A stretch of 64,000 nt of DNA from Cellulosimicrobium sp. ES-005. Its GTDB lineage: Bacteria; Actinomycetota; Actinomycetes; Actinomycetales; Cellulomonadaceae. The notes below the pieces were generated by a model that saw only the letters and a program-made list of their open reading frames with translations, was not told the origin of the DNA and did no database searches. The stretch covers positions 1,612,001 to 1,676,000 of the forward strand of contig NZ_CP159290.1 in NCBI RefSeq assembly GCF_040448685.1. Direction: 5' to 3'. Each line of letters starts with the position of its first letter. The stretch's first letter is position 1. Position numbers and translations under genes: made by a program. This document shows positions 1 to 15,507 of the stretch, piece after piece.

Positions 1-82
1 GCCACCCCGCGTGCGGAGGACGCCCGGCATAGCCGGAGAGGTCGCGCGGATAGGGCTGCTCGATAGGGTGCGTCGTTGTCAT
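1..82 (-). CDS. PuuE-like polysaccharide deacetylase, N-terminal fragment
   Basis: Twenty-seven codons are visible from an ATG whose complement is at 80-82, with GGAGAG seven bases upstream as ribosome binding site. The peptide contains YPRDLSGYAGRPPHAGW, which resembles the N-terminus of the allantoinase PuuE branch of the polysaccharide deacetylase family (typical form YPRDxxGYGxxPPHxxWPG). PuuE hydrolyses allantoin without metal; related proteins deacetylate sugars. The gene is divergent from the FCD regulator and shares its promoter region and operator. The rest of the gene is outside the window, so the catalytic core cannot be checked and the substrate is unknown. Confidence 0.6.
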   Translation of the reverse strand, partial: MTTTHPIEQPYPRDLSGYAGRPPHAGW

Positions 83-145
83 CGCGTGTCTCTCCGTCGG
101 GGTGATGTCGGTCGCCGACGCGCCGACTAGAATGCGTGGTGTTCG

Positions 146-163
146 TTAGTCACATCTGACCAA
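146..163. promoter_or_regulatory. Operator copy 1 for the FCD regulator
   Basis: TTAGTCACATCTGACCAA is a near-perfect palindrome (TTRGTCA/TGACYAA arms). The left half and the TGAC at the same spacing recur at 1016-1033. It lies about a dozen bases after a TAGAAT hexamer (128-133), so a bound protein would block transcription of the regulator and could also affect the divergent deacetylase gene. Autoregulation is inferred from position. Confidence 0.6.
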
Positions 164-227
164 CATCGGCCAACGATGGCCCCGACTCGCCATCCGCGTC
201 AAGCGGACGGGCCTGGAGAGGACACAC

Positions 228-1004
228 ATGAACGATCGCGAAGGCGCGATGCTCGCTCTGGCGCACGCCATCTCGACGTCGGACGTTCCCGTGGGCACGC
301 GCAACGCCCAACGCGAGCTCGCGGCACGTGGGATGGTCCTCAGCGAATCCTCCGTGTCTCGCCTCCTGCGCGAGATGGATCGGCGCGGGTGGACGACCCC
401 GGCGGGGACGAAGGGGCGCACCCTTTCGGCAGAGGGGCGGCGCCGCGCCGCAGAGGCGGTCTTGGCGGAGCGGACGTCGGACTCGCTGCAGCACGCGGTG
501 CGCGATGTTCAGGACCTGCTCGACCTGCTGCGCGCACGACAGGCCGTCGAGAGCGCTGTGGCTGCCGACGCGGCCCGCAATCCCAGCGGTGAGGGTGTCG
601 CCGAGCTGCGACGGCTGTGCTCCGATCACGCGAACGCGGTCGGGAGCATGCCGATGATCGAGCAGCCTGGTCTTCAGTTCCATCGCGGCGTGGTGGAGCT
701 GGCGAGCAACCGGATGCTCAAGCTCGCCGCCGACATGATGCTGGCCCCGCACCTGGACCGGGTCGAGGCTGTGCTCGACGCGATCTTGTCCACCCGCCGC
801 GACGAGGAGCGTGTCGTCGCCGAGCACCGGGACGTCCTCGAGCGCATCGAGGCTCGCGATCCCGCGGGTGCTCAGGCAGCGATGGAGGCGCACTTCGACG
901 ACATGATCGCAGCGGCGGAGAACGCCCTGGTGGGAAGCGGTGGCGCTCTCGTCGAGCGCCTCCTCGGCTGGGTCGAGGCCGTGCCCGATGTCATTCGACG
1001 CTGA
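228..1004 (+). CDS. FCD-domain (GntR/FadR-like) transcriptional regulator
   Basis: This 258-residue protein has an N-terminal winged helix-turn-helix (about residues 1-70, with SSVSRLLREMDRRGW as the likely recognition region) and a C-terminal all-helical domain of FCD type (about 95-240, with FHRGVVELASN and EHRDVLERIEARDPAGAQAAMEAH being typical). FCD regulators bind small organic acids or sugar acids and release DNA. The wing region is not the standard GntR sequence, so the HTH may belong to another winged-helix subgroup. GAGAGGAC before 228 serves as ribosome binding site. The operators at 146-163 and 1016-1033 flank the gene, which suggests autoregulation and control of the following catabolic operon. 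Confidence 0.8.
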   Translation: MNDREGAMLALAHAISTSDVPVGTRNAQRELAARGMVLSESSVSRLLREMDRRGWTTPAGTKGRTLSAEGRRRAAEAVLAERTSDSLQHAVRDVQDLLDLLRARQAVESAVAADAARNPSGEGVAELRRLCSDHANAVGSMPMIEQPGLQFHRGVVELASNRMLKLAADMMLAPHLDRVEAVLDAILSTRRDEERVVAEHRDVLERIEARDPAGAQAAMEAHFDDMIAAAENALVGSGGALVERLLGWVEAVPDVIRR

Positions 1005-1015
1005 CCTGGTCGGCG

Positions 1016-1033
1016 TTAGTCAGAATTGACAGA
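1016..1033. promoter_or_regulatory. Operator copy 2, before the beta-propeller gene
   Basis: TTAGTCAGAATTGACAGA repeats the TTAGTCA-N4-TGAC core of 146-163 at identical spacing. It starts 12 bases after the stop codon of the regulator and 78 bases before the start at 1111. The repeat in front of two transcription starts on either side of a regulator gene is the main evidence that it is the regulator's operator. Confidence 0.6.
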
Positions 1034-1110
1034 CGCCTGATCGGGTGTGCAGACTGCCGCCGTCGACGGAAACGACCGTCGGATCGACGACGCAACGACG
1101 GCAGGAGCAG

Positions 1111-2256
1111 ATGGTGGCCTCAGGCACGATGGTTCCGGCACGGGTGCTGATCAACCCGACCGAGGACCGGTTCCAGGACGAGCACCGCATGTGGCAGGGC
1201 ATCCCCTCGATCGAGCGGACGGCCGGTGGCCGTCTCTACGTCGACTGGTACACGGGGATGGAGACGGAGACCGGTGGCAACTTCGTCCTGGCAGTAACCA
1301 GCGACGACGAGGGCCGAACCTGGGACGGTCCTCGGTTCGTCGTCGAGCACCCCGATCCGCAGGTGCGCGTGTACGACCCGGCACTGTGGCGCGACCCGGC
1401 CGACCGGCTGTGGATGTTCTGGAACCAGAGCCGCGACTTCTTCGACGGCCGGGTCGGGGTGTGGGCGTCGGTTAGCGAGAACCCTGACGACGACACGCCC
1501 TCTTGGTCGCCGCCGCGGCGAATCGCCAACGGCCTGCAGATGAACAAGCCGACGGTGCTGTCCGACGGCACCTGGCTCTTCCCGACCGCCATCTGGGCAT
1601 GCCACGAGCCCACCGAGGACCACCCCCTCGACGGCGAGCGGTTCTCGAACGTGTACGCCTCCACCGACCAGGGCGAGACCATCAGGTACAGGGGCAGCGC
1701 TGACGTCCCGAACCGCAGCTTCGACGAGCACATGGTCGTCGAGAAGCAGGACGGCACGCTGTGGATGCTGGTGCGCTGCTTCGACGGCGTGGGGGAGTCA
1801 TTCTCCACCGATGGCGGACGCACATGGTCGCCCGGCCGGCGCAGCCACGTGGACGGCCCGTGCTCGCGGTTCCACATCCGACGAATGCCCTCTGGACGCC
1901 TGCTCATGATCAACCACGTCGACTTCGGCGAGCGGCGCACCGTCGAGGAGCTCGAGCTGCAGGGCAACGTCAAGGAGTGGAAGGGGCGTACCAACCTCAC
2001 TGCTCTCCTCAGCGACGACGACGGGGCCACCTGGCCGCACCGCCTGCTGCTCGACGACCGCGACGACGTGTCCTACCCCGACGCGGCGATCGGCCCCGAC
2101 GGCCAGATCTACGTGACCTACGACCACGACCGGTTCGGCGACCGGGGGATCTACCTCGCCCGCATCACCGAGGAGGACATCCTCGCCGGCACCCCGAGCA
2201 GCCCCGGCTCCGAGCTCGCCCTGCTCGTCAACCGCGCGCTCGCCCGAGTGCACTGA
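1111..2256 (+). CDS. Sialidase-like (BNR/Asp-box) beta-propeller enzyme, cytoplasmic
   Basis: The 381-residue protein has four Asp-box motifs of the S-x-D-x-G-x-T-W type (SDDEGRTW, STDQGETI, STDGGRTW, SDDDGATW), one per blade of a six- or seven-bladed propeller. It lacks a signal peptide or membrane segment, so it should act inside the cell on an imported glycoside. Propellers of this kind include GH33 sialidases but also GH145 rhamnosidases and PL42 rhamnosyl-glucuronate lyases. The classical sialidase arginine triad is not obvious, and no sialic acid lyase or kinase is nearby, so a literal sialidase is doubtful. ATG 1111 follows GGAG closely; an upstream in-frame ATG at 1045 lacks a binding site. 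It heads the operon with the ECF transporter. Confidence 0.65.
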   Translation: MVASGTMVPARVLINPTEDRFQDEHRMWQGIPSIERTAGGRLYVDWYTGMETETGGNFVLAVTSDDEGRTWDGPRFVVEHPDPQVRVYDPALWRDPADRLWMFWNQSRDFFDGRVGVWASVSENPDDDTPSWSPPRRIANGLQMNKPTVLSDGTWLFPTAIWACHEPTEDHPLDGERFSNVYASTDQGETIRYRGSADVPNRSFDEHMVVEKQDGTLWMLVRCFDGVGESFSTDGGRTWSPGRRSHVDGPCSRFHIRRMPSGRLLMINHVDFGERRTVEELELQGNVKEWKGRTNLTALLSDDDGATWPHRLLLDDRDDVSYPDAAIGPDGQIYVTYDHDRFGDRGIYLARITEEDILAGTPSSPGSELALLVNRALARVH

Positions 2257-2265
2257 CACAGAACT

Positions 2266-2293
2266 CCGGACACCGGCACGCGCGCCGGTCCGG
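2266..2293 (+). other. Hairpin between the propeller gene and the ECF genes
   Basis: CCGGAC-A-CCGGC pairs with GCCGGTCCGG around a six-base loop, leaving one bulged A. It begins ten bases after the stop codon at 2256 and 111 bases before the next start at 2405. It may be a partial terminator or an RNA-processing stem that sets different expression of enzyme and transporter. No U-tract follows. Confidence 0.4.
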
Positions 2294-2404
2294 GCCATGG
2301 CCGCAACGCGGCCCCGATCGCTCGTCGGCATGAACGCGCACGGGCGACCACCAGAAGGTGCTGTCAGCGACGACCGCACCATGACACGTCCCCGGAGGGA
2401 CACC

Positions 2405-3034
2405 ATGACTCGAGCTCAGCAGACCAAGACCCGCTGGACCGTCCTGCCCAACTGGAAGTTCCAGATCCTCCCGCGGGACACGCGCACGATCATCACGTGC
2501 GTGTTCCTCGGACTGACGATGGCTGTCATCCTGCAGATCACCGAGCGTATCGACCTCGCCCTGACCGGCGGGAGCATCCCGATCGTCTCGGCGATCGTCG
2601 TGTGCGCCATCTGGGTTCCGTCCGCCGCGTTCTACGGGCTGACGGGCGCCTTGATCACGGCGTGGATCAACCCGATCATCTCCAACCTCACCGCATCCCA
2701 GCCGATGGCACCGTTCCTGTTCCTGACGAACGCTGCCCACACCGTCCCGGTGGCTCTGCTGGTCTGGGCGCTCAAGCCGCGCGACCGCGGCCTCAAGCTC
2801 TGGCAGGTCGTGGTCATCGGCCAGATCGCCGGCCTGTGCGACGCCATGATGTTCGGCATCGGCAACCGCGTGATCCTGCACCTGCCCTGGGACTTCATCA
2901 CCGTGCAGATCCTCATCGTCCAGCCGTGCTACCTCGTGGGCTCCTTCATCACCTACGGGATCATGCGCCGACTGGTGAACACGGGCCTGGTTCCCAAGGA
3001 GCGCGCCACCGCTGGGAGCCTCGATGCGGTGTGA
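2405..3034 (+). CDS. ECF transporter S component, unknown substrate
   Basis: The 209-residue protein has a short basic N-terminus and about six hydrophobic segments (for example TIITCVFLGLTMAVIL, PIVSAIVVCAIWVPSAAFYG, LTNAAHTVPVALLVWAL, IGQIAGLCDAMMFG, ILIVQPCYLVGSFITYGIM), the size and topology of an energy-coupling-factor substrate-binding subunit. Its place directly before ecfT and two ecfA genes supports this. It does not match the riboflavin, thiamine, biotin, cobalt or folate S-component signatures I know. The neighbours are sugar-acid enzymes, so a sugar acid or uronate glycoside is the inferred cargo. ATG 2405 has GGAGGG at good distance; the upstream in-frame ATGs do not. Confidence 0.75.
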   Translation: MTRAQQTKTRWTVLPNWKFQILPRDTRTIITCVFLGLTMAVILQITERIDLALTGGSIPIVSAIVVCAIWVPSAAFYGLTGALITAWINPIISNLTASQPMAPFLFLTNAAHTVPVALLVWALKPRDRGLKLWQVVVIGQIAGLCDAMMFGIGNRVILHLPWDFITVQILIVQPCYLVGSFITYGIMRRLVNTGLVPKERATAGSLDAV

Positions 3035-3064
3035 CCTGACCATCTCGTCCGCGGGAGGAGCACG

Positions 3065-3862
3065 ATGAGTGGCACGATGCTGTTCCGTCCCGGCCGGTCC
3101 TTCCTGCACCGTGCCGACGCCCGGGCGAAGCTGGCAGTGATCCTGCTCGTCCTGGCCGTAGCGCTCAGCACGACCCGGCTCGACGTTCTCGTCGCGCTCA
3201 CCGTCCTGATCGTCATCGGGCTCGCTGCGCTCGCGCGCATCACCCCAGCCTCCTATTGGAAGGCGCTCGTCCTCATCGTTCCCCTGATCGCGCTGCTGAC
3301 GCTCCTGCAGGCGCTGGTTCAGGGAGGCCCGGCGCTGATGCACATCGGCTCAGTCTCGCTGTCCCGCTCGGGGGTGCTCCTCGGGCTCGGCATCGGGATG
3401 CGGCTGTTCGCGATGGGCATCTGCTTCTACGGGTTCTCCGTCACCACGAGTCCCTCGGACATTGCCCTCGCGCTGGACAAGCTCGGTGTGCCGTACCGGT
3501 TCGCCTATCTGACGAGCTTCGCGTTCCGGTTCCTGCCGCTGCTACAGGACGAGGCGCGCACCCTGCTGACCGCCATGGCCGTGCGCGGGTCCAGCGAGAG
3601 CGGCTCCAGCAACCCGTTCAGACGCGGACGAGCGATCGTGCGGATGCTGTTCCCCATGCTTGCGGGATCGATGAAGCGCAGCGGCGACATCGCCCTATCG
3701 ATGGAGCTGCGCGGTTACGGGCTGCGCGGCACGCGCACGTACTACCGCTCGCCGGTCTTCCGCGCCACCGACGCCGCCCTGCTGCTGTGCACCCTTGCGC
3801 TCGCTGTCGCCCTCATCGGCGTGCAGTGGTGGGCCCCGACCCCGTTCCTGGGAGGAACGTGA
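3065..3862 (+). CDS. ecfT: ECF transporter T component (EcfT/CbiQ family)
   Basis: The 265-residue membrane protein couples the S component to the ATPases. N-terminal LHRADARAKL is typical of CbiQ-family proteins, followed by several transmembrane segments. The two cytoplasmic coupling motifs ending in Ala/Leu-Arg-Gly are visible as AMAVRG (about residue 175) and SMELRGYG (about 215); these insert into the ATPase grooves. GGGAGGAG precedes the ATG. Its stop at 3860-3862 is separated by one base from the next start, so it is translationally coupled to the first ATPase gene. Confidence 0.9.
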   Translation: MSGTMLFRPGRSFLHRADARAKLAVILLVLAVALSTTRLDVLVALTVLIVIGLAALARITPASYWKALVLIVPLIALLTLLQALVQGGPALMHIGSVSLSRSGVLLGLGIGMRLFAMGICFYGFSVTTSPSDIALALDKLGVPYRFAYLTSFAFRFLPLLQDEARTLLTAMAVRGSSESGSSNPFRRGRAIVRMLFPMLAGSMKRSGDIALSMELRGYGLRGTRTYYRSPVFRATDAALLLCTLALAVALIGVQWWAPTPFLGGT

Positions 3863-3863
3863 C

Positions 3864-4736
3864 ATGACCACACCAGCCATCGAGGTCGCCGGCCTCAGCG
3901 TCCGGTACGACGGCGCCGACCGCCGTGCCCTCGACGAGGTCGACCTGACCATCGGACAGGGTGAGATCGTCGGCATCCTCGGCCCGACCGGTGCAGGCAA
4001 GTCCACGCTCCTGCAGTGCCTGTCCGGCGTCATCCCCTTGCACGAGCACCACGCGAGCCTGAAGGGAACCGTCCGCGTCCTTGGTCGCGAGCTCTCCGAG
4101 TATGACGGGTTGGCCCAGATCACCGAGGACGTCGGGCTCGTCATGCAGGATCCAGAGGTCCAGCTCGTCAACACGGTCGTGCGCGAGGAACTCGTCTGGG
4201 GCATGGAGAACCGCGGCGTGCCCGTCCCGGAGATCGAGCGGCGCCTTGCCCGAGCGGCGCACCTGTTCGACATCGAGCGGCTGCTCGACCGCTTCACCCA
4301 CGCGCTCTCGGGCGGGGAGAAGCAGCGCGTCGTGGTCGCCTCGATCTTCTGCCTCAGCCCGCGAATCATGCTGCTGGACGAGCCCACGTCAGAGCTCGAC
4401 CCGGCAGGGACCGAGAACGTCATGGACGCCATCCGCGTACTCGCCGACGAGGGCGTGACCATCATCGTCGTCGAGCACAAGGTCGAGGAGCTGGCGGTGT
4501 ACGCCGACCGGCTCGTCGTCCTCGACGAAGGGCGCATCCGCGCTCTAGGCACCCCGCGAGACGTCCTTGAAGGGCCGACCGCACCCGAGCGCCCGCAGGT
4601 CCTGGACGTCGCACTGCGGCTGCGCGAGCAGGGCCTGTGGCCCGGACAGCTGCCGCTGTCCGTCCAGGAGGCGGTCGACACGTGGCGCCGGGCTGACCTG
4701 GCCGAGCCGATGCTGCACGAGGGGAGACTGGCATGA
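3864..4736 (+). CDS. ecfA: ECF transporter ATP-binding protein (first of pair)
   Basis: This 290-residue ABC ATPase has a Walker A motif GPTGAGKS (residues 40-47), Q-loop VMQDPEVQLV, canonical signature LSGGEKQR and Walker B IMLLDEPTSELDP. The Q-loop form MQDPExQ is typical of ECF/CbiO ATPases. ATG 3864 has GGAGG at 3851-3855 inside the end of ecfT. The gene overlaps the second ATPase gene by ATGA (4733-4736). It should form a heterodimer with that protein under EcfT. Confidence 0.9.
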   Translation: MTTPAIEVAGLSVRYDGADRRALDEVDLTIGQGEIVGILGPTGAGKSTLLQCLSGVIPLHEHHASLKGTVRVLGRELSEYDGLAQITEDVGLVMQDPEVQLVNTVVREELVWGMENRGVPVPEIERRLARAAHLFDIERLLDRFTHALSGGEKQRVVVASIFCLSPRIMLLDEPTSELDPAGTENVMDAIRVLADEGVTIIVVEHKVEELAVYADRLVVLDEGRIRALGTPRDVLEGPTAPERPQVLDVALRLREQGLWPGQLPLSVQEAVDTWRRADLAEPMLHEGRLA

Positions 4737-5599
4737 CGAGCACCGAGACGGTCATCGAGATCGACAACGTCGAGCACACCTACGGCGGAACGAAACGCGC
4801 GCTCGCAGGGGTGTCGCTGTCCATCGGCCAGGGCGAGTTCGTCGCAGTGATCGGGAAGAACGGCTCCGGCAAGACGACGCTCGCCAAGCACTTCAACGGG
4901 CTCCTGCGACCGACCAACCCCGGCGGCAGCGTCCGGCTGCGCACGCGAGACGGCATCGTGGACACCCGGCGCACCAAGCTGCACCAGCTCGCCTCCACGG
5001 TCGGATACGTGTTCCAGAACCCTGACCGACAGATCTTTCACGACACCTGCCGAGAAGAGCTGGAGTACGGGCCGCGCAACCTCGGCGTCGAGGAGTCCGC
5101 ACTCGAGGATCAGGTCAACCGCACCCTCGCCCTCGTGGGACTCTCCGGGCGCCAGGACGCCAACCCCGTCCACCTGTCGCGTGGTGAGCGCCAGCGGCTT
5201 GCCATCGCCTCGACCCTCGTCATGGGATGCGAGGTCGCCGTCATCGACGAGCCGACCACCGGGCAGGACCGTGCCGAGTCCCGCAAGATCCTGGACGCCC
5301 TGGCCCACCATCACGCACTGGGACGCACGGTGGTGATCATCTCCCACGACATGGCTCTCGTCGCCGAGTACGCGACGCGCGTCATCGCGATGCGCGAGGG
5401 AGCCGTCCTTGCCGACGGCACCCCAGCAGAGGTGTTCTCCCGGAGGGCGGTGCTCGAGGAGACCAATATCCGCCCGCCGCAGGCCGCTGTCCTTGCCGCC
5501 GAGCTCGGCCTGCACGGCGTCCTGACGGTCGACGACGCAGTCCACGCAATGACACGCGAGCGCGCCGCCGCTCCTGTTGCCGGCCGGCACCGACCGTAA
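4733..5599 (+). CDS. ecfA: ECF transporter ATP-binding protein (second of pair)
   Basis: This 288-residue ABC ATPase has Walker A GKNGSGKT (41-48), Q-loop FQNPDRQIF, Walker B VAVIDEPTTGQD and the H-loop HD of ISHDMA. The signature motif is LSRGERQR, with arginine in place of the first of the two glycines, unlike its partner's LSGGEKQR. In heterodimeric ABC systems such a deviation often marks an asymmetric, partly degenerate ATP site. It starts within the stop of the preceding gene (ATGA) and ends nine bases before the dehydrogenase gene. Confidence 0.9.
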   Translation: MTSTETVIEIDNVEHTYGGTKRALAGVSLSIGQGEFVAVIGKNGSGKTTLAKHFNGLLRPTNPGGSVRLRTRDGIVDTRRTKLHQLASTVGYVFQNPDRQIFHDTCREELEYGPRNLGVEESALEDQVNRTLALVGLSGRQDANPVHLSRGERQRLAIASTLVMGCEVAVIDEPTTGQDRAESRKILDALAHHHALGRTVVIISHDMALVAEYATRVIAMREGAVLADGTPAEVFSRRAVLEETNIRPPQAAVLAAELGLHGVLTVDDAVHAMTRERAAAPVAGRHRP

Positions 5600-5608
5600 G
5601 GAGAGCCC

Positions 5609-6616
5609 ATGCACTACCTGATCACCGGAGCCAATGGCTTCGTCATGAGCGTCCTCGCGGCGAGGATCCTTGACGCCGAGCCGGACGCTCAGGTCACGGC
5701 GATCGACCTGCACGATCCCGACCAGGCAGCTCTCGACAACCTTGGCCCGCAGGCCCAGCGCGCCCACTTCCGTGCCGTCGACGTCACCGACGCCGACGCG
5801 GTAGCACAGGCGGTCCGTGAGGCGAGCCCGGACGCGATCGTGCACGGCGCGACCGTCACACACGACGCCCGCAGCGAGGTCGAGAACCCTGCCCGATTCA
5901 CCGGGGTCAACGTCGAGGGGACGGTCAACCTGCTGGACGCCGCACGCCGTCTGCCGCAAGCGCCGCGCATCGTCCTGGTCAGCAGCGGCGCGGTCTACGG
6001 GTCCTCGCCCGAGACGCTGCTGACCGAGGAGAGCGCGCCCCGCCCCGACGAGCTCTACGGCATCAGCAAGTGGGCGAGCGAGCTCGTCGCCCGCCGCTTC
6101 GCCGAGCTGCACGCTCTGCCCACGACCATCACGCGACTGACGAAGATGTTCGGGCCGATGGAGCGACCCACTGGTGGACGGGCGGTCATGTCGCTCCCGT
6201 TCCACCTCGCGGCCGCCGCAGTGCGGGGAGAACCGGCTCGATTGACGGCCCGGACTCTTGAAGCGTGCGGCGACTGGCTCAGCGCCGACAGTGCGACCGA
6301 CGCGCTGCACAAGGCTGCCCGCCATGGGGGAGACCCGGGTACGACACGCACCCTGAACATCTCCTCCGGCCGACGCACCAGCGTGCGCGAGCTCGTCGCG
6401 GCGTTCGGCGTCGACGTCGTCGAGACGCCGCTCGACGTGGCCGAGGCCGACATGGACCCGCGCGACGACCACGGGAAGAACGGCGTCTACGTGTCGGAGC
6501 GCGCCCAGTCAGAGCTTGGCTGGTCACCTGGCGACCTTCAGATGCAGGTGTCCCACTACCTCGAGTGGGCCCGCGTCCACGCACATCTGCTCCAGCCTGC
6601 CGGTGGCGCGTCGTGA
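5609..6616 (+). CDS. NAD-dependent epimerase/dehydratase family (extended SDR) dehydrogenase
   Basis: The 335-residue protein has the extended-SDR nucleotide motif TGANGF (6-11), an active-site Ser around 125-126 (VSSGAVYG) and YGISK, with Tyr150 and Lys154 as catalytic pair. Closest recalled relatives are the D-erythronate dehydrogenase (DenD) and related sugar-acid dehydrogenases rather than UDP-sugar epimerases. In this operon it would oxidise a sugar or sugar acid before the kinase/aldolase step. AAGGAG precedes the ATG. The last four bases are shared with the GTG start of the next gene. Confidence 0.7.
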   Translation: MHYLITGANGFVMSVLAARILDAEPDAQVTAIDLHDPDQAALDNLGPQAQRAHFRAVDVTDADAVAQAVREASPDAIVHGATVTHDARSEVENPARFTGVNVEGTVNLLDAARRLPQAPRIVLVSSGAVYGSSPETLLTEESAPRPDELYGISKWASELVARRFAELHALPTTITRLTKMFGPMERPTGGRAVMSLPFHLAAAAVRGEPARLTARTLEACGDWLSADSATDALHKAARHGGDPGTTRTLNISSGRRTSVRELVAAFGVDVVETPLDVAEADMDPRDDHGKNGVYVSERAQSELGWSPGDLQMQVSHYLEWARVHAHLLQPAGGAS

Positions 6617-7599
6617 CGCCCGGCCTCGTCGCCTTGGACTGGGGCACGACAGCCTGCCGCGCCTACCTCCTCGACGACACCGGCACGGTGCTAGCACGAC
6701 GAACGAGCCAGGACGGCGTGGCGACGATCAGCCGGCGTGCGATCGTTGACGGCCATAGTCGGGAGCGTGCCTTCGAGGACGCCCTGGTGCTGCTGTGCGG
6801 GGACTGGCTGGCGCGCACCCCAGGGCTCCCGGTCCTCGCGAGCGGCATGGTCGGCAGCGACCAAGGCTGGCAGCACACGCCCTACCTGCCGCTACCGGTC
6901 GAGCTCGCGCGAGACGACGTGCCATTGACCGCGGTGCGCACCCGGATCGCGGACGTGCACCTGCTGCCCGGGGTGACGTCTGCGCAGGGAGCCTTGACCG
7001 AGGTCGCCCGGGGAGAGGAGACCCAGGCGCTCGGGGTCCTCCTGCAGATCCGTCCCGCTGACGACGAGGAGACCGTCCTCGTCCTTCCCGGGACCCACTC
7101 CAAATGGCTGCGAGCGCGAGGCACACGCCTGACCTCGCTAGCGACAGCCCTGACCGGCGAGCTGTACGCAGCCTTGCTCGCGCACACCGTTCTCGGTCAC
7201 GACGTGCGCGCGCCGCAGGCTCCGAGCTGGTCGGCGTTCGACCGCGGCTTGGACGTCGCCTGGGACCATCAGGTCGAAGGGACCGTCCTCACGCTCTTCT
7301 CGGCGCGGGCCCTGGTCGTGACGGGGCAGCTGCCCGCCGACGACGTGCCGGACTACCTCTCAGGTCTCCTCGTGGGTGCAGAGATCGCAGGCATCGCAAG
7401 AGCCTGGCTCAGCTCGTCACATGGTCAGCCCGTCGTCGTGGGGGAGCCGCACCTGCAGGAGCGGTACGTCCGAGCGCTGACGCGGTACGGGACGCAGGCT
7501 CGCCTCGCCGACAACGACGTCACCGCGGGCGGACTGCACCACGTCGCTGTGCGCGTCGGCCTTGTCCCTTCACCTACGACCGCAGGAGCCCTCCCATGA
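6613..7599 (+). CDS. dgoK: 2-dehydro-3-deoxygalactonokinase (DgoK family)
   Basis: The 328-residue protein shows DgoK hallmarks: VALDWGTTACRAYL at the N-terminus, GMVGSDQGW, the PGTHSKW motif and TGELYA. DgoK phosphorylates 2-keto-3-deoxy-D-galactonate to the 6-phospho form, the substrate of DgoA. The GTG start at 6613 overlaps the SDR stop (GTGA); the longer open frame upstream lies inside the SDR gene and is not coding. The next gene starts four bases before this one's stop. The true substrate could be a stereoisomeric 2-keto-3-deoxy acid. Confidence 0.85.
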   Translation: MTPGLVALDWGTTACRAYLLDDTGTVLARRTSQDGVATISRRAIVDGHSRERAFEDALVLLCGDWLARTPGLPVLASGMVGSDQGWQHTPYLPLPVELARDDVPLTAVRTRIADVHLLPGVTSAQGALTEVARGEETQALGVLLQIRPADDEETVLVLPGTHSKWLRARGTRLTSLATALTGELYAALLAHTVLGHDVRAPQAPSWSAFDRGLDVAWDHQVEGTVLTLFSARALVVTGQLPADDVPDYLSGLLVGAEIAGIARAWLSSSHGQPVVVGEPHLQERYVRALTRYGTQARLADNDVTAGGLHHVAVRVGLVPSPTTAGALP

Positions 7600-8216
7600 C
7601 CTCATCGGCGGACCCGGCACTGCTCGTCGCCATCCTGCGTGGACTGCCGTCCACCGAAGCGCCGACCGTAGGCACCGCCCTCTACGGCGCGGGAATCCGC
7701 ACGCTGGAGGTGCCGCTCACGACACCAGACTCCCTGCGCAGCATCACCGCGCTGCGCTCCTGTCTGCCCGAGGACGTTCAAGTCGGCGCCGGGACGGTCA
7801 GGACGATCGAGGACGTGGCTCGAGCGCATGAGGCGGGCGCCTCGCTCATCGTCTCCCCACACGTCGACCCGGCCGTCATCGGCGCTGCGCTCGCACGCTC
7901 GATGCGATGCCTGCCTGGAGTCGCGACGATCACCGAGGCTCTCACCGCCCTCGCCGCCGGCGCTGCAGAACTCAAGGTGTTCCCGGCCGACCAGGTCGGC
8001 ACCAGCGGACTGCGCGCCTGGCGAACCGTCCTTCCCGAGGGCATCGCCCTCTATCCCGTCGGAGGCGTGGGCGCAGCCAACCTTGCCATCTGGGCTGCGG
8101 CCGGGGCGGACGGGTTCGGTGTCGGGGGCTCGCTGTACCAGCCCGGCATGGGCACCAGCGACCTGGTCGCGGGTGCGAAGGCACTTGTTGCCGCCCACCG
8201 CGCCCTCTGCTGCTGA
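7596..8216 (+). CDS. dgoA: 2-dehydro-3-deoxy-6-phosphogalactonate aldolase (DgoA/KDPG aldolase family)
   Basis: The 206-residue protein is a class I aldolase of KDPG/KDPGal type. The Schiff-base lysine is Lys127 in AELKVFPA and the catalytic glutamate is Glu38 in LEVPLTTP; VGAGTV and IVSPHVDP are family motifs that fit DgoA better than Eda. It splits a 2-keto-3-deoxy-6-phospho acid to pyruvate and glyceraldehyde 3-phosphate. GCAGGAGC precedes ATG 7596, which overlaps the dgoK stop region. It is the last gene of the island operon; no sugar-acid dehydratase is present within the window. Confidence 0.85.
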   Translation: MTSSADPALLVAILRGLPSTEAPTVGTALYGAGIRTLEVPLTTPDSLRSITALRSCLPEDVQVGAGTVRTIEDVARAHEAGASLIVSPHVDPAVIGAALARSMRCLPGVATITEALTALAAGAAELKVFPADQVGTSGLRAWRTVLPEGIALYPVGGVGAANLAIWAAAGADGFGVGGSLYQPGMGTSDLVAGAKALVAAHRALCC

Positions 8217-8449: not shown

Positions 8450-10264
8450 TCATCGGCTCGCCCGTCTCCGCGTCGTCGGCCGGAGCGAGGCCGCGCCCGA
8501 CGGCACCTGGAAGTCGTCGGACATCGCGCGGGTCCGGCGAGCGGCCTGGAGGCGGGGGGACACCGGGGGAGGGTCGGGGCGCAGGGGCCGGCCCGGGAGG
8601 GCGGTGGTGAGCCTGCCGTCGCGCAGGACGGGCACGCCCGCGACGAGCACGTCGTCCACGCCGGACGCCGGGCGGCGCGGGTCCTCGTAGGTCGCTTCGT
8701 CGCGGACCTGGTCGGGGTCGACGAGGGCGAGGTCTGCGACCGCGCCGGGCACCACCGTGCCGCGCCCGGGGAGGGCGAACCGTGCGGCGGGTCGGGTGGA
8801 CAGGTGCGTGACGGCGTCGTGCCAGGTCCAGTCCCTGAGCGTACGCACGTGCTCGGCGAGGAAGCGCGCGAACGCGCCCCACCCGCGCGGGTGGGGTCGG
8901 CCGCCGCCTGCGACGGGCGCGTAGATCGCGTCGGACCCGCCGACGTGCGCGCGGTGGCGTAGCAGGGCACGCACGGAGTCGGGTGAGTTGGTCGGGGGTT
9001 GGGCGAACACGCACGAGGCGCGCAGGCGGGTCGCGACGAGCAGGTGCACCGCGGTCTGGGCGGGGGTCAGGCCCAGGTGGGCGGCGACGTCGGGCAGGGT
9101 CATGCCCTCGGTCCAGGTCAGGTCCTCGGCGGGTCGGGCGTCGGGGGCTCCGGCGGCGGTGCCGGTGGGGACCGCGGCCATGGTGATGCGGGGCCACAGG
9201 TCGGTCAGGGTGGGGAAGTGCTCGCGGTGCAGGCGGTCCAGGACGGCGGGGTCGGTCAGGGCGGTCACGGTCGCGTCGACGTCGGCGACGGGCAGCCAGG
9301 TGGGTAGGGACACCATGGACAGGATGGAGCAGCCGCGCAGGTAGGGGTAGGAGTCGAAGGTGACGTCCAGGCCCTGGGCGTGGGCGTCCTCGACGTACCC
9401 GAGCAGCTCGGCGGCGGGGCCGTGGTAGTGCGAGACGTGGGTCGCGACGCCCGTCGCGCGCGCGAGGCGCACGAGCTCGGCGAACGCGGGCCCGGCTTTG
9501 TCTTCGTAGCCGCGCATGTGCGACACGTGGGGGAGGCCGCGGGCGGCGAGGATGCTGGTGAGGGCGACGAGCTCGGTCTCGTCGGCGTACGTGGCCGGGA
9601 CGTACTCCAGGCCGGTCGACATCCCGAGGGCGCCGTCGTCGAGCGCGGTGGTGAGCAGGGCGCGCATGCGGTCGGTCTCGGCGGGCGTCGCGGGGCGGGC
9701 CGCGGGGCCCAGGACCGCGTAGCGGATCGTGCCGTGCGGGGCGAGGTAGCCGACGTTGACCCGGGTCGTGCGGTCGTAGGTCGCGAGGAGGTCGGCGACG
9801 GACCCGCCGCGGAAGGTGGGGTGGGTGCCGTTGATCGCGGCGAAGTACCCGCTCGCCCAGGCCGCGGCGTCGTGCAGGCCCGACGCCGTCTCGGCGCCCG
9901 GGCCGCGTGCCTGGCCCGGGCCGCGTGCCTCGCCCGGGCCGCGGGCCTGGCCCGGGGCGGGCGAGGGCGCGTAGGACACCCCGTCCTGCCCGACCACGAC
10001 GCTCGTCACGCCCTGACGCAGCATCGCGAGCTGCACGTCCTCGTCCAGGACCGCGGCCTCGCCGTGCACGTGCGCGTCCACGAACCCCGGCAGCACCAAC
10101 CGCCCGCCCGCATCGACGATCGCCACGTCCTCGGGCAACGCCCGCGCCCCGGCCGCAGGGCCGACGCTCTCGACCCGGCCCCCACGAACCGTCACGTCCA
10201 CCGGAGAGGAGGCACCGCCGTCGGACCCGACCAGCCGAGCACCACGGACCACCAGCCCACTCAC
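8450..10264 (-). CDS. N-acyl-D-amino-acid deacylase family amidohydrolase
   Basis: The 604-residue protein is an amidohydrolase of the D-aminoacylase subgroup. It has the metal motif DAHVH after a small N-terminal beta domain, HSH-like HVSHMRGY, THVSHYHG and a late GSDAIY (metal Asp). Such enzymes remove acyl groups from D-amino acids, or open lactam or dipeptide bonds. GTG 10264 shares GTGA with the stop of the DUF1275 gene, giving coupled translation. The N-terminal third has a low-complexity insert made of a 6-residue repeat (G-Q/E-A-R-G-P, DNA 9896-9957) that is absent from usual members. The last 35 residues are rich in Arg and Ser and poorly conserved in style. Confidence 0.75.
   Translation of the reverse strand: MSGLVVRGARLVGSDGGASSPVDVTVRGGRVESVGPAAGARALPEDVAIVDAGGRLVLPGFVDAHVHGEAAVLDEDVQLAMLRQGVTSVVVGQDGVSYAPSPAPGQARGPGEARGPGQARGPGAETASGLHDAAAWASGYFAAINGTHPTFRGGSVADLLATYDRTTRVNVGYLAPHGTIRYAVLGPAARPATPAETDRMRALLTTALDDGALGMSTGLEYVPATYADETELVALTSILAARGLPHVSHMRGYEDKAGPAFAELVRLARATGVATHVSHYHGPAAELLGYVEDAHAQGLDVTFDSYPYLRGCSILSMVSLPTWLPVADVDATVTALTDPAVLDRLHREHFPTLTDLWPRITMAAVPTGTAAGAPDARPAEDLTWTEGMTLPDVAAHLGLTPAQTAVHLLVATRLRASCVFAQPPTNSPDSVRALLRHRAHVGGSDAIYAPVAGGGRPHPRGWGAFARFLAEHVRTLRDWTWHDAVTHLSTRPAARFALPGRGTVVPGAVADLALVDPDQVRDEATYEDPRRPASGVDDVLVAGVPVLRDGRLTTALPGRPLRPDPPPVSPRLQAARRTRAMSDDFQVPSGAASLRPTTRRRASR
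9896..9957. repeat. In-frame 18-bp tandem repeat in the deacylase gene
   Basis: Three full copies of an 18-bp unit (GCCCGGGCCGCGTGCCTG and one- or two-base variants) at 9896-9913, 9914-9931 and 9932-9949, plus a partial fourth to 9957. Because the unit is a multiple of three, gain or loss of a copy keeps the reading frame and changes the protein by six residues. Confidence 0.85.
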
Positions 10265-10962
10265 CGCGCGAGACCGTCTCGGTTCGTGTGCCCGAGCAGT
10301 GCGGCGATCGCGGTGATCGCGGCGCTCGCCGCGATGCCCGCCACCAGGTGGAGCTGCAGGAGCAGCGCGCCCGCCAGCGCGCCGAGGATCATGAGGACGA
10401 CGGCGGCGCCTCGGCGCGCCCATGGCTGGTCGACGCGGTGGCCGAGCCATGAATCGGCGGCGAGGCCGGTGATGGTCGACGTGACGACGACGGTGGTCAC
10501 GTCGGCGACCTTGACGTGTCGGGCGGCGGCCGCCTGGGCGCCCATCGCGAGAGCGAGGAACGCCGTCACGAGCATCCCCAGCACCGACGGAGCGGAGGTC
10601 TCGTGGGTCCCGAGATCGCCCGCGAGGGCGAGCGCTGCGCCGAGGGTGAGAAGGGTCGTGACGCCGAGAAGGAGGGCGCGGGTCCGTGGGGTCCACCCGG
10701 TGACGGAACCGCGGAGGACCCGTCCGCCGAGCGCGGCGCCGAGGACGAACGCGCCGAGCGCGAGCGACGGCCCCGCGACGGGCAGGTCCGCGCCGGCCAG
10801 GCCCATACCGAGGATGACGACGTTGCCGGTCATGTTCCCGGCGAACACCCGGTCGAGGCCGAGGTAGCCGACGGCGTCGATGACGCCGGTCGAGAACGTG
10901 AGGGCCAGGAGCTGGGGGACCGGGGTGAGCGGAGCGCGGGCGGTGGGGCGCCGGTTCTGCAC
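10261..10962 (-). CDS. DUF1275 (YoaK-like) membrane protein
   Basis: The 233-residue protein has about six hydrophobic segments and the family's N-terminal pattern (LLALTFSTGVIDAVGYLGL, RVFAGNMTGNVV), which includes the conserved D-x-x-x-Y and N-M-T-G-N. The function of DUF1275 is unknown. Start GTG 10962 has AAGGCAG upstream. The gene is first in a two-gene unit with the deacylase (GTGA overlap) and is divergent from the ROK regulator. Confidence 0.8.
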   Translation of the reverse strand: MQNRRPTARAPLTPVPQLLALTFSTGVIDAVGYLGLDRVFAGNMTGNVVILGMGLAGADLPVAGPSLALGAFVLGAALGGRVLRGSVTGWTPRTRALLLGVTTLLTLGAALALAGDLGTHETSAPSVLGMLVTAFLALAMGAQAAAARHVKVADVTTVVVTSTITGLAADSWLGHRVDQPWARRGAAVVLMILGALAGALLLQLHLVAGIAASAAITAIAALLGHTNRDGLAR

Positions 10963-11001
10963 GTGAGGCTGCCTTTCGTCGGTGTGAGTTCCGCAGAGGG
11001 G

Positions 11002-11061
11002 GTGACAAGACGGGGGGAGGTGTGTCTACACTCTCCGCACCTCATTATTCTCAAGCTGAGA
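11002..11061 (+). promoter_or_regulatory. ROK gene promoter and palindromic operator candidate
   Basis: GTGACA (11002-11007) and TACACT (11027-11032) form a plausible -35/-10 pair with a 19-base spacer. Downstream, TCTCA-AGC-TGAGA (11049-11061) is a perfect inverted repeat within an unusually AT-rich stretch just before the ATG at 11068. ROK repressors often regulate their own genes, so autoregulation is inferred. No second copy was found before the transporter gene at 12336. Confidence 0.45.
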
Positions 11062-11067
11062 GAAATT

Positions 11068-12267
11068 ATGCACCCTGCCACTGAACCCCGTGCCACCAAC
11101 CGCAGCGCGATCCTGTCCGTGCTGCTGTCGGGGCAGACCCTGGAGCGCAGCCAGATCGTGGAGGCGACCGGGCTCAGCCGTGCGACCGTCTTCCGGGTCG
11201 TCGACGACCTGCGGTCTCGCGGGCTCGTTCGCGACGCCGCGACGCTGCCGTCGTCGAGCCCGGGCCGGCCGTCGACGCCGGTCGTCTTCGACGGGAGCGT
11301 GCAGACCGTGTGCGGGGTCGACCTCGGTGGGACCAACTGCCGCTTCGCCGTATCGGACACGCTCGGACGGACACTGGTCCGTTCGAAGCACCCGACGCCC
11401 CGGCAGCTCGACGGACCGGCGATGGGCACCTGGATGGCCGAGCGTGTGCACGAGCTCGTCGCGCTCACGGCCGAGGACCACGGTGCCCTGGGGGCGGTGG
11501 CGATCGGCGTGCCGGGTGCCGTCTCCGGCGACAAGACCGCCGTGGTGGGGTCTCACAACCTCCCGCAGATCCTCGGGACCACGTTCATCGACACGTTCCG
11601 CGACGGGGTCGGTGTGCCGACGACGCTGGACAACGACTCCAACCTCGCCCTCGTGGGCGAGCTCCAGTACGGCGGGCTCGCCGAGAACGAGACGGCGGCG
11701 CTGCTGACGCTCGGCACGGGCCTCGGCTCGGCGGTCGCGCTGCGTGGTCGCGTGCTCTACGGACGCACGGGCGTGCTCGGCGAGTTCGGCCGCCTGCAGG
11801 TGCCCGGGACCGAGACCCGACTGCGTGACCTCGTCTCTGGCGCCGGCCTCGTGGCCTTCGCCCAGGAGCGCGGCCACGACATCACCTCGGCGCGCGAGGT
11901 GCTCGACGAGCCCGAGCGCTTCCCCGACCTCGTCCCCCTCATCCGGTCTGCGCTCGTCCACCTCGTCTCGCTCGTCGGCCTGTCCTACGAGCCGCGGACC
12001 GTCATCGTCACCGGCGGCTTCGCGGACGGGCTCGAGGACGAGACCCTCGACGCAGTCCAGGCGCAGGTCCTCGACCTGGTGGGCGTCAGCACGGTCCTGC
12101 GCCGGACCGAGCTCGGCGACTTCGCCGGGCTGCTCGGCGCGCTGGCGGTCGCGCTCGGCGACCTCTATGCCTCCCTCGGCGTGCTCGAAGAGCACATCAG
12201 CCGCATCGACGTGGACCGGGCTCGGGCCGTCAAGGCACTCGAAGACGTCCCGGTCCACGCCCCCTGA
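11068..12267 (+). CDS. ROK family transcriptional regulator (NagC/Mlc-like)
   Basis: The 399-residue protein joins an N-terminal winged HTH (about 15-75; LERSQIVEATGLSRATVFRVVDDL) to a ROK sugar-kinase-like domain with VCGVDLGGTNCRFAV and LLTLGTGLGSAVAL. The zinc-binding cysteine cluster CxCGxxGC of classical NagC/Mlc is missing: the region after the ATP motif reads GVLGEFGRLQVPG. It is divergent from the DUF1275/deacylase unit and directly precedes the ABC transporter and amino-sugar enzymes, so it probably senses an amino sugar or its phosphate. ATG 11068 was chosen because the HTH begins right after it; no strong binding site is visible. Confidence 0.85.
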   Translation: MHPATEPRATNRSAILSVLLSGQTLERSQIVEATGLSRATVFRVVDDLRSRGLVRDAATLPSSSPGRPSTPVVFDGSVQTVCGVDLGGTNCRFAVSDTLGRTLVRSKHPTPRQLDGPAMGTWMAERVHELVALTAEDHGALGAVAIGVPGAVSGDKTAVVGSHNLPQILGTTFIDTFRDGVGVPTTLDNDSNLALVGELQYGGLAENETAALLTLGTGLGSAVALRGRVLYGRTGVLGEFGRLQVPGTETRLRDLVSGAGLVAFAQERGHDITSAREVLDEPERFPDLVPLIRSALVHLVSLVGLSYEPRTVIVTGGFADGLEDETLDAVQAQVLDLVGVSTVLRRTELGDFAGLLGALAVALGDLYASLGVLEEHISRIDVDRARAVKALEDVPVHAP

Positions 12268-12335
12268 CGACGGCGCGCCGCGCCGCGTTCCCCGAGAAAG
12301 CACGACGACGTGGTTTCCCCACGGAAGGAAGTTCC

Positions 12336-13640
12336 ATGAAGTTCAGCAGGACGGCCCTCGCTGGCGGGGCACTGACCATCACTCTTCTGCTCACCGCAGG
12401 GTGCGCCGGCGGTGCGGGGGGCACCGACGGCGGCGAGGAGTCGGGCACGCTCACGGTCTGGATGATGACCGGTGGCCCGGGCGACTCGCCCCTCGTGGAG
12501 GAGGTGAACGAGGCGTTCGCGACGAAGCACCCCGACATGGACGTCAAGGTCGAGATCCAGCAGTGGGACAACATCGCCACCAAGATCACGACGGCCCTCG
12601 CCTCCGGCAACGGGCCGGACATCGTCGAGATGGGCAACACCCAGACGGCGCTGCAGACCTACTCCGGCGCTCTGCTCGACCTCACCGAGGACAAGGACTC
12701 GTTCGAGGACTCGGGCTCCTGGCTCGCGGGCCTCGCCGAGCCTTCGACCCTCGACGACCACCTCTACGCCACGCCTCTCTACGGCGGCACGAAGGTCGTC
12801 ATGTACAACACCGAGATGTTCGCGGCGGCCGGGATCACACAGCCGCCCGCGACCCTCGACGAGCTCGAGCAGGCATGCGTCGCCCTGGCGGAGTCGTACT
12901 CCGACCGGGCCAACTACTCCGGGTTCTACATGCCGGGGCAGTACTGGTTCGCGGGCGCGCCGTTCGTGTTCGGTGCCGGGGGAGAGCTCGCCGAGAAGGA
13001 CGGCGACCAGTGGGCCGGGGTGCTCAGCTCGCCCGAGTCGCAGCGAGGCCTGGAGGCCTGGCGGGACTTCCAGAACACGTGCTCCACGCCGTCGTCGACC
13101 GGCGTGAACACCAACAGCCCGGACCAGGACCAGCTCTTCGCGGACGGACAGGCGGCGATGCTGTACGTCAAGGCGTGGGAACCGGCGGCCGTCATCGAGA
13201 AGAACCCTGACCTCGAGGGCAAGCTCGGCTACTTCGTCATGCCGGGCTACACCGCGGGGGAGCCGCTGCCGACGATCGTGGCCGGCTCGACCATCGGCAT
13301 CTCGGCAGCGACCGACAAGCCCGAGGCGGCCAAGGACTGGCTGCGCATCATCACCGGCGCGGACTTCCAGGGCCGGATGGCGCAGGAGCTCAACCTGCTG
13401 CCGATCTCCCCGTCGTTCATGCCGACCGAGGGCGTCACGGAGGCGCTCACCGTCGGTGCCCAGGCCGTGGAGATCAACCACGCGCTCCCGGTGACCCCGG
13501 GTCAGGCGACGTTGGACGGCGAGCGCTACAACGAGCAGTTCTTCGCCTCGATCGCTGCGGGGAAGGACATCCCCGCGTCGGCGAAGGCGTACGACGCGCA
13601 CGTCGCGGAGGTGTTCAACGCGACGGGGTCCGGCTCCTGA
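12336..13640 (+). CDS. ABC transporter sugar-binding lipoprotein
   Basis: The 434-residue protein has a lipoprotein signal (basic start, hydrophobic run, lipobox LTAGC with Cys at about 23) and a family 1 solute-binding domain (LTVWMMTGG, VEIQQWDNIATKI, GNGPDIVEMGN). AAGGAAG precedes the ATG. It is followed after one base by two MalF/MalG-type permeases and then by NagZ- and NagA-like enzymes, so the expected cargo is an N-acetylglucosamine-containing mono- or disaccharide such as chitobiose or a muropeptide sugar. No dedicated ATPase is present; in Actinobacteria a shared MsiK-type ATPase usually serves such systems. Confidence 0.9.
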   Translation: MKFSRTALAGGALTITLLLTAGCAGGAGGTDGGEESGTLTVWMMTGGPGDSPLVEEVNEAFATKHPDMDVKVEIQQWDNIATKITTALASGNGPDIVEMGNTQTALQTYSGALLDLTEDKDSFEDSGSWLAGLAEPSTLDDHLYATPLYGGTKVVMYNTEMFAAAGITQPPATLDELEQACVALAESYSDRANYSGFYMPGQYWFAGAPFVFGAGGELAEKDGDQWAGVLSSPESQRGLEAWRDFQNTCSTPSSTGVNTNSPDQDQLFADGQAAMLYVKAWEPAAVIEKNPDLEGKLGYFVMPGYTAGEPLPTIVAGSTIGISAATDKPEAAKDWLRIITGADFQGRMAQELNLLPISPSFMPTEGVTEALTVGAQAVEINHALPVTPGQATLDGERYNEQFFASIAAGKDIPASAKAYDAHVAEVFNATGSGS

Positions 13641-13641
13641 C

Positions 13642-14622
13642 ATGGCGATCCAGACCCACAGTGCGGTGAGTCCCGAGGCATCGCCTCGGGGCTCCCGCGC
13701 CCGTCCTCCGTCCTCGTCGGGGCGCGTGCGTCCTCGGCGTTCACGACTGCCGTACGGCCTCGTCGCCCCGGCCGTCCTCGTCCTCGTGGTCGTCCTCGGC
13801 TACCCGATGGTGCGACTGCTCATGCTGTCGTTCCAGCGGTTCGACGCCCGCTCGCTGTTCACCGGTGACGCGCCCTTCGTCGGGCTCGACAACTACACGG
13901 CGATCCTGGCGGACGGCACGTTCTGGGGCGTCGTCGCCCGCACGGCCGTCGTCACGGTCGTCTGCGTCGGCGTCATGATGGTGGTCGGGTTCGCTCTCGC
14001 CCAGGTCCTCGTGCGCACGTCCGCCTGGGCACGGCTCACCCTCATGGTCTGCCTCGTCCTGGTCTGGGCGATGCCGATGGTCTCGGCGGCGCTCGTGTGG
14101 CAGTGGCTCTTCCAGCCGCAGTACGGGGTCGTGAACTGGCTGCTCACCCAGCTACGGATCTTCGGTGACCTCAGTGCGCACGACTGGTTCTCCCACCCCG
14201 CGCAGGCTTTGGGCCTCATCATCCTCCTCATCGTGTGGAAGGGCCTGCCCTTCGTCGTCCTGACGCTCTACGCCGCGATGGGTCAGATCCCGCACGAGAT
14301 GTACGAGGCCTCGGGGCTCGACGGCGCGGGGCGGTCGCAGACCCTGCGCTACATCACGCTCCCGATGCTGCGGCCGGTGCTGGCGATCCTCGTCGTGCTG
14401 GAGGTCATCTGGTCCGTCAACTCGTTCACGCCGTTCTGGGTCCTCACCCAGGGCGGCCCGTCCGGACAGACGACGACCCTGTCGGTCTACGCCTACGTCC
14501 GAGCCTTCACGGCGAACGACTACGGGGCGGGCGCGGCGATCTCGATCGTCACGATCGCGCTGCTCTCCGTCTTCGCCGTCTTCTACGTGCGCCGGCTGGC
14601 GAAGGACGGTGAGGTCTCATGA
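13642..14622 (+). CDS. ABC sugar transporter permease (MalF/UgpA type)
   Basis: The 326-residue membrane protein has about six transmembrane segments and the permease EAA loop EMYEASGLDGAGRSQTLRYI, which contacts the ATPase. A proline/serine/arginine-rich cytoplasmic N-terminus of about 30 residues precedes the first helix. The ATG lies one base after the stop of the binding protein gene. ATGA at 14619-14622 couples it to the second permease. Confidence 0.9.
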   Translation: MAIQTHSAVSPEASPRGSRARPPSSSGRVRPRRSRLPYGLVAPAVLVLVVVLGYPMVRLLMLSFQRFDARSLFTGDAPFVGLDNYTAILADGTFWGVVARTAVVTVVCVGVMMVVGFALAQVLVRTSAWARLTLMVCLVLVWAMPMVSAALVWQWLFQPQYGVVNWLLTQLRIFGDLSAHDWFSHPAQALGLIILLIVWKGLPFVVLTLYAAMGQIPHEMYEASGLDGAGRSQTLRYITLPMLRPVLAILVVLEVIWSVNSFTPFWVLTQGGPSGQTTTLSVYAYVRAFTANDYGAGAAISIVTIALLSVFAVFYVRRLAKDGEVS

Positions 14623-15461: not shown

Positions 15462-15507
15462 CCTCGTCGTCGTCCCTCGCCGTCGCCACGTCCCTCCAGG
15501 AGCTGCC

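Follow-up and report, generated by a model that had tools for sequence, protein, structure and literature searches.

The sequence analysis of a 64,000-nucleotide stretch of Cellulosimicrobium sp. ES-005 (positions 1612001-1676000 of the 4.86 Mb single-contig genome; hereafter, the window) revealed a small unit, consisting of one regulator, two operator-like dyads and about ten genes, which couples a complete energy-coupling factor (ECF) transporter to catabolic enzymes. The genes follow on the plus strand in the order regulator, BNR/sialidase-fold protein (BNR), ecfS, ecfT, ecfA1, ecfA2, extended short-chain dehydrogenase/reductase (SDR), dgoK and dgoA, with short gaps or overlaps between them, and a gene for a PuuE-type amidohydrolase is divergent to them (Table 1). 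The reading tentatively favoured here is that the unit serves catabolism and has a dedicated ECF importer, which would bring in a hydantoin-like cyclic ureide as a source of carbon and nitrogen. Such a cyclic ureide, which in Actinobacteria would yield a 2-keto-3-deoxy sugar acid, is a more likely cargo than a plain uronate glycoside.

The conservation of the unit was evaluated in 17 actinobacterial loci, comprising the window, loci L002-L015 from one scan of a genome collection (hosts in Cellulosimicrobium, Streptomyces, Georgenia, Ruania, Pseudonocardia and Rhodococcus), and the loci L069 and L082; these are not 17 independent cases, since L002 is nearly identical to the window. The comparison of gene order across Actinobacteria, suggested in a preliminary description of this DNA along with the contrary outcome that the operon might be absent from relatives, showed the series S-T-A1-A2-SDR to be kept in 17/17 loci, and hence the gene order of the unit is not due to chance. 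PuuE lies beside the ECF set in all 17 as well, the copy of the Ruania locus (L012) being a fragment at the contig start. BNR occurs in 16 of the 17 and is missing from the Pseudonocardia locus (L014), and a homologue of the regulator (32-100% identity) is likewise present in 16, with none on the short contig of L012. A kinase and an aldolase for 2-keto-3-deoxy-aldonates were detected in 8/17 loci, as the DgoK/DgoA pair in the window, L002 and L003, and as a PfkB-type kinase with an Eda-like aldolase in L005, L007, L069, L011 and L015; the aldolase of the latter pair lies upstream in L015 and downstream in the other loci.

The ECF-PuuE-SDR unit is rare. Strong matches to the S component were obtained in one of 396 Actinomycetota genomes, which is the window's own, together with two matches at 24%, and in 2 of 295 genomes grouped around a Streptomyces genome. 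The families to which the Rhodococcus and the Pseudonocardia belong gave strong matches in 1 of 351 and 2 of 346 genomes, respectively, and these last three counts take in the centre genomes. The BNR subfamily was also confined to the window's own genome among the 396 (in the rows shown, no genome had more than four scored candidates), and a plasmid search with BNR gave no match. The ecfA2 gene of Streptomyces iconiensis (L010:12298-13163) was matched as two overlapping pieces, likely reflecting a frame change or a sequencing error. The Ruania PuuE gene is broken: besides the fragment with which L012 opens, where a transposase-like frame was noted nearby by eye, contig C18 of G406 carries a longer part that contains a stop.

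The constancy of the S-T-A1-A2-SDR series and of PuuE supports the earlier proposal of a dedicated ECF set within a conserved catabolic unit. BioMNY, CbiMNQO and NikMNQO are Group I ECF transporters with a dedicated module, and the transporter of the window resembles this group in that a single operon supplies its S, T and both ATPases and in that its T is of the CbiQ family; it differs in an S component without a library match, in its catabolic-enzyme partners, and in T and ATPases that fall under the equivalog cut-offs. The xRG motifs of EcfT are AVRGS at 172 and ELRGY at 214. The best models of EcfA1 and EcfA2, TIGR04520 and TIGR04521, are both ECF ATPase models; EcfA2 displays the signature LSRGE, and its Walker B gave no match to the simple pattern used. 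Examined with regard to the six-helix fold of S components, the hydropathy profile of S has peaks near residues 36, 64, 81, 113, 142 and 176 with a 15-residue window, and fewer clear ones with a 19-residue window. S has no match in Pfam or NCBIfam and none in PDB at E values up to 10, either as a single sequence or as a profile; it appears to represent a family not described in the searched libraries, in a transporter otherwise of known kind. The available portions of PMC4820897 and PMC7329351 give vitamins, transition metals and further micronutrients as ECF cargos, and a ureide or catabolic cargo class is not named in these portions or in that of PMC11109136.

The genes surrounding relatives of S and SDR were also inspected in other genomes and plasmids. 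Of the five records that a plasmid search with S yielded, four are Klebsiella pneumoniae plasmids (67%) and one is from the archaeon Halomarina sp. PSR21 (36%); the neighbourhoods in pKPN-80a and Halomarina were read. The gene order in pKPN-80a is M20 hydrolase, ecfS, T, A, A, SDR (41%), RidA, PuuE (67%) and FCD regulator, with HydA, M20, NCS1 permease and FabG-type SDR on the other strand. HydA scores above its cut-off (543.9 vs 393.25), both M20 proteins exceed that of the NF006771 allantoate amidohydrolase (405.4 and 423.9 vs 399), and the NCS1 protein is closest to allantoin permeases, under their cut-offs. The ECF genes of Halomarina adjoin an M20 hydrolase (443.8 vs the NF006771 cut-off of 399), caprolactamase/hydantoinase A and B-like proteins (under cut-off) and a racemase-like gene (by eye). 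In Pseudonocardia (L014) and Rhodococcus (L015), HydA-like, isochorismatase, RidA, FabG-type and NCS1 genes join the ECF unit. Moreover, an SDR relative (33-34%) adjoins a PuuE relative, near HydA and dihydroorotase-type genes, in three rhizobial/Paracoccus stretches (L054, L055 and L056) taken from 15 non-Klebsiella plasmid records with an SDR match. These neighbours suggest that PuuE and ureide chemistry are the common thread of the transporter and the SDR, the sugar-acid genes being more variable, and the position of the S relatives among hydantoinase/carbamoylase-type genes favours a cyclic ureide as cargo. The neighbourhoods in pKPN-80a, Halomarina, Pseudonocardia and Rhodococcus resemble hydantoin catabolic clusters (HydA, M20 carbamoylase, HyuA/B type), which differ in that no published tie of such clusters, or of allantoin catabolism, to an ECF importer was found in a limited literature collection; in the available part of PMC5011921, the ECF and allantoin/hydantoin words are unrelated table entries.

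The three rhizobial/Paracoccus stretches share a cluster of a dipeptide-type ATP-binding cassette (ABC) transporter, a major facilitator superfamily protein, HydA, SDRs, PuuE, a thiamine pyrophosphate enzyme scoring above the PRK06154 cut-off (842 vs 607) and a dihydroorotase-type gene. A very distant S-like protein (24%) was located in L018 and L019, from two genomes of one actinobacterial genus, where a UbiD-like gene (by eye) lies directly downstream of it. No match was obtained when viral contigs were scanned with the S alignment or when E. coli was searched using the stretch from Klebsiella.

The divergent gene, which the preliminary description did not include, was read from 8 kb of upstream DNA and encodes a complete PuuE-type protein of 320 residues. 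It scores above the curated TIGR03212 cut-off (432.4 vs 424.6 bits) as the only such match in its genome, and its best solved relative is the PuuE of PDB 3cl6 (E=1.1e-104). A match above the cut-off is present in 13/14 of the other genomes (those behind L002-L015), and the ECF-locus copy is the sole one in 12/14, Rhodococcus having a second copy and Ruania only the broken one. The window protein resembles allantoinase PuuE (TIGR03212; PDB 3cl6 and 1z7a) along most of its chain, including the NxEEGGE and HxxRW motifs of solved PuuE, but differs in one loop, which reads NNDGR(Y/F) in 17/17 full-length ECF-linked rows (16 actinobacterial and one from Klebsiella, the L012 fragment being omitted) and TNDMRF in two solved PuuE and in the second Rhodococcus PuuE, whose neighbours resemble purine/allantoin genes by eye. 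Allantoicase is absent from 5/15 genomes, including that of the window (the AllC route was not searched), and in the ten where it is present, it sits away from the ECF unit. The altered loop and the missing allantoicase therefore argue for a PuuE substrate other than allantoin. The loop may set the specificity of the enzyme, and the ECF-linked PuuE is predicted to hydrolyse a hydantoin-type ring.

The dyads further connect PuuE with the operon. The pattern GTTnGTCA-N4-TGACnnAC is matched exactly at only two places in the genome, the two sites of Table 1, with no third exact site. Its core, GTCA-N4-TGAC, was seen by eye at both gaps in six other printed loci (L003-L007 and L010); L011 has one dyad, before puuE, and L013 a near match by eye. 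With up to two mismatches, the whole genome contains 21 forward and 23 reverse matches, as compared to 5 and 7 for the reversed control, and the window contains 4 matches vs 0.69 expected (3/100 shuffles as high), a count that leans in favour of the pattern because the pattern was written from these very sites. An inverted-repeat tool reported no repeat at either dyad. In loci of the window's type, the shared dyads tie PuuE and the regulator to the operon.

The role of BNR was evaluated by comparison with GH33 exo-sialidases. At E ≤ 0.01, a profile search reached 39 PDB sequences, almost all of which carry the name sialidase or BNR protein; the similarity is that of the BNR/Asp-box propeller. 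In the sialidase TEcQVVE...MR stretch, the Glu and the Arg are matched by E206 and R222 of BNR. R293 aligns with the Arg before the last Asp box, Y322 with the Tyr of the final blade, and residue 51 (Glu in 9/12 rows, Asp in 3/12) with the Asp after the RIP motif; E206, R222, R293 and Y322 are invariant in 12/12 BNR rows. In sialidases, the Tyr is the nucleophile with the Glu as its partner, the arginines form a triad, and the Asp is the acid/base residue. A Tyr/Glu pair is typical of enzymes acting on sugars with a carboxylate at the anomeric carbon. BNR differs from the exo-sialidases in its weak similarity to them, in the loss of the RIP Arg, and in the lack of a signal peptide as judged by eye, the last agreeing with the signal-less propeller protein described earlier. 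From this alignment, BNR might release a 2-keto-3-deoxy sugar acid directly. Such a 3-deoxy-2-ulosonic acid is what the kinases require, and this would explain the lack of a dehydratase from the unit.

The occurrence of two unrelated kinase/aldolase pairs in 8/17 loci indicates that the 2-keto-3-deoxy-aldonate branch is real, and bears out that part of the preliminary description in which a sugar acid enters central metabolism. The oxidation of a uronate, which had been assigned there to the SDR, gained no specific support, as its best library models and PDB relatives are nucleotide-sugar dehydratase/epimerase types (Udh was not compared directly). The kinase and aldolase of the window belong to the same families as those of the DgoK/DgoA galactonate pathway; the unit differs from that pathway in lacking galactonate dehydratase and in the use of a PfkB-type kinase and an Eda-like aldolase by its relatives. 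Galactonate as the cargo is weakened by this replacement of DgoK/DgoA and by the stretches without kinase and aldolase. No dehydratase was detected within the unit in Pfam and NCBIfam scans. Of the enolase-superfamily proteins encoded elsewhere in the genome, one was scanned; its nearest model is ManD, and its scores stay under every cut-off shown, with DgoD at 202 vs 311 (the IlvD/EDD type was not searched).

The scheme proposed for the cyclic ureide is as follows. The ECF complex would import it, and the PuuE-type enzyme would open the ureide ring in the cytoplasm, uncovering a carboxylate; the extended SDR may oxidise or reduce the polyol part. In Actinobacteria, BNR would then hydrolyse the bond at the carboxylate-bearing carbon to give a 2-keto-3-deoxy sugar acid, which DgoK and DgoA, or the PfkB-type kinase and Eda-like aldolase of the relatives, would convert to pyruvate and glyceraldehyde 3-phosphate. 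In Klebsiella, M20, HydA and RidA genes would replace BNR. The sequences themselves show the gene content and its conservation, the shared operator-like dyads, the membership of PuuE, the kinase and aldolase families and the sialidase-type residues; from these we infer the cargo and the order of the steps, together with the SDR step and the bond, substrate and product of BNR. The sugar-acid branch of the earlier interpretation would thereby be retained as one half of the fate of the molecule. In a more specific and rather improbable form of this reading, the transporter would represent a new ECF family, and its cargo would be a 3-deoxy-2-ulosonic acid carrying a spiro- or N-ketosidic ureide, hydantocidin-like in its logic. 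PuuE would open the hydantoin to free the anomeric carboxylate and BNR would remove the ureido group from that carbon, so that 2-keto-3-deoxygluconate (KDG) or 2-keto-3-deoxygalactonate would reach the kinase without a dehydratase.

Several observations weigh against the cyclic-ureide reading. We know of no common nutrient with both a ureide and a sugar-acid part. The kinase and aldolase were not found in the fetched stretch of 8/17 loci, apart from L012, whose stretch ends too early, and L014 and L015 carry a different dyad by eye. BNR, as well as the KDG genes, is absent from the Klebsiella and Halomarina stretches seen, and no PuuE or SDR match occurs within 20.5 kb in Halomarina. The very weak S matches in G043 and G250 (24%, E about 1e-4) lie beside a UbiD-like gene (by eye), with no ureide gene. 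The similarity of BNR to sialidases is weak (best whole-sequence E of 6e-7, single stretches weaker), and Gly30, invariant in the 12 BNR rows, replaces the RIP Arg, so that one of the three sialidase arginines is lost. Three enolase-superfamily matches above cut-off elsewhere in the genome leave a dehydratase route open. A single ECF-linked PuuE clade is not supported by a tree of 21 rows, which needs 2 changes, 0% of 200 bootstrap trees having 1; the outgroup of this tree, L022, has a very long branch.

The alternative closest to the preliminary description has a sugar acid or uronate glycoside as cargo, which BNR cleaves, the SDR oxidises, and DgoK and DgoA process to the end, PuuE being a side activity. 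This is unlikely, although DgoK/DgoA and the PfkB/Eda-like pairs replacing them, the restriction of the BNR subfamily mentioned above, and a weak match between the SDR and D-erythronate dehydrogenase (69 bits vs a cut-off of 325) are in its favour, because PuuE is no less constant than the transporter and is preceded by a dyad as well, and the S relatives opened outside Actinobacteria are in hydantoin/ureide-type clusters. The earlier interpretation thus stands for the dedicated ECF set, the conserved unit and the 2-keto-3-deoxy branch, and gives way on the plain uronate glycoside cargo and the SDR as oxidiser; the statement that all the enzymes point to a sugar acid or uronate glycoside is not supported, the most constant partners being the PuuE-type cyclic-amide hydrolase and the SDR (17/17 each).

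It is quite unlikely that the cargo is allantoin or a simple hydantoin used as a nitrogen source, with BNR and the KDG genes loosely linked for a second purpose. The score of PuuE above the allantoinase cut-off and the Klebsiella cluster, with its PuuE, two M20 allantoate-amidohydrolase-type genes and NCS1 permease, agree with it, but the NNDGR(Y/F) loop in place of TNDMRF in all 17 ECF-linked rows, the genomes without allantoicase and a BNR subfamily found only with this unit do not. PuuE also belongs to the polysaccharide deacetylase superfamily (PF01522, 38.4 bits), and if it acted here as a CE4-type N-deacylase, the unit, with its sialidase-like BNR, could be envisaged to degrade an N-acylated ulosonate or amino sugar acid; this is highly unlikely, as the protein scores as PuuE with the motifs of the solved enzyme, and the S relatives lie in a hydantoinase context. 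An ordinary vitamin or cofactor importer lying beside a sugar-acid operon by accident would suit the cargos described for ECF transporters (available portions of PMC4820897 and PMC7329351), but it has a very slight probability and is rejected as a first choice because 17/17 loci of several families share the gene set and because S, for which a vitamin family had been considered earlier, has no counterpart of that kind in Pfam, NCBIfam or PDB.

The features of the unit are listed in Table 1, in which the genes named in the preliminary description are confirmed at their places by family matches and coordinates.

Table 1. Features of the ECF-PuuE-SDR unit in the window
Feature	Position	Strand	Evidence and remarks
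puuE-type amidohydrolase gene, N-terminus, divergent	1..82	-	full gene L016:7120-8082, extends 880 bases outside the window
Operator-like dyad GTTAGTCACATCTGACCAAC, puuE/regulator gap	145..164	unassigned	exact pattern match
Transcriptional regulator, HTH_12 + FCD	228..1004	+	PF07729 69.4 bits, PF08461 27.8 bits
Second operator-like dyad GTTAGTCAGAATTGACAGAC, 5' of operon	1015..1034	unassigned	exact pattern match
BNR/sialidase-fold protein	1111..2256	+	PF13088 102 bits
ecfS, S component without library match	2405..3034	+	placed before T and two ATPases; hydrophobic peaks
ecfT	3065..3862	+	PF02361 112.7 bits; xRG motifs
ecfA1 ATPase	3864..4736	+	TIGR04520 209.5 bits vs cut-off 315; Walker A, LSGGE, Walker B
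ecfA2 ATPase	4733..5599	+	TIGR04521 237.5 bits vs cut-off 330; Walker A, LSRGE
Extended SDR	5609..6616	+	PF01370 125.5 bits
dgoK, 2-keto-3-deoxygalactonate kinase family	6613..7599	+	PF05035 271.4 bits
dgoA, 2-keto-3-deoxy-6-phosphogalactonate aldolase family	7596..8216	+	NF006600 229.6 bits vs cut-off 207

The G+C content is 0.68 to 0.71 across the first four 2-kb blocks and mostly 0.70 to 0.78 further on. On the minus strand, convergent to dgoA, a long frame with a D-aminoacylase-type amidohydrolase (by eye) lies at 8450-11008, beside a DUF1275-like membrane gene. A separate sugar operon is probably formed by the genes at 10516-16974, where, by eye, a ROK-type regulator precedes a sugar ABC transporter of the binding-protein-dependent type and a GH3-like gene. 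ARAGORN reported a tRNA-Ala (anticodon ggc) of 90 bases, an unusual length, at 50924-51013 within a long open frame region; this tRNA could be a false positive.

In 17/17 actinobacterial loci, a complete ECF set is firmly coupled to the catabolism of carbon and nitrogen, and it recurs next to hydantoin-type genes on Klebsiella plasmids and in a haloarchaeon. Since the unit is small, the cargo should be findable by ordinary genetics and binding assays. If the cyclic-ureide reading is correct, a branch of the ECF transporters would serve ureide catabolism, PuuE would have a second substrate, and a new function would be added to the sialidase fold. In the more specific case of a ureide of a 3-deoxy-2-ulosonic acid, the unit would provide a bulk-nutrient cargo for an ECF transporter, and its sialidase-like enzyme would attack a C-N bond.

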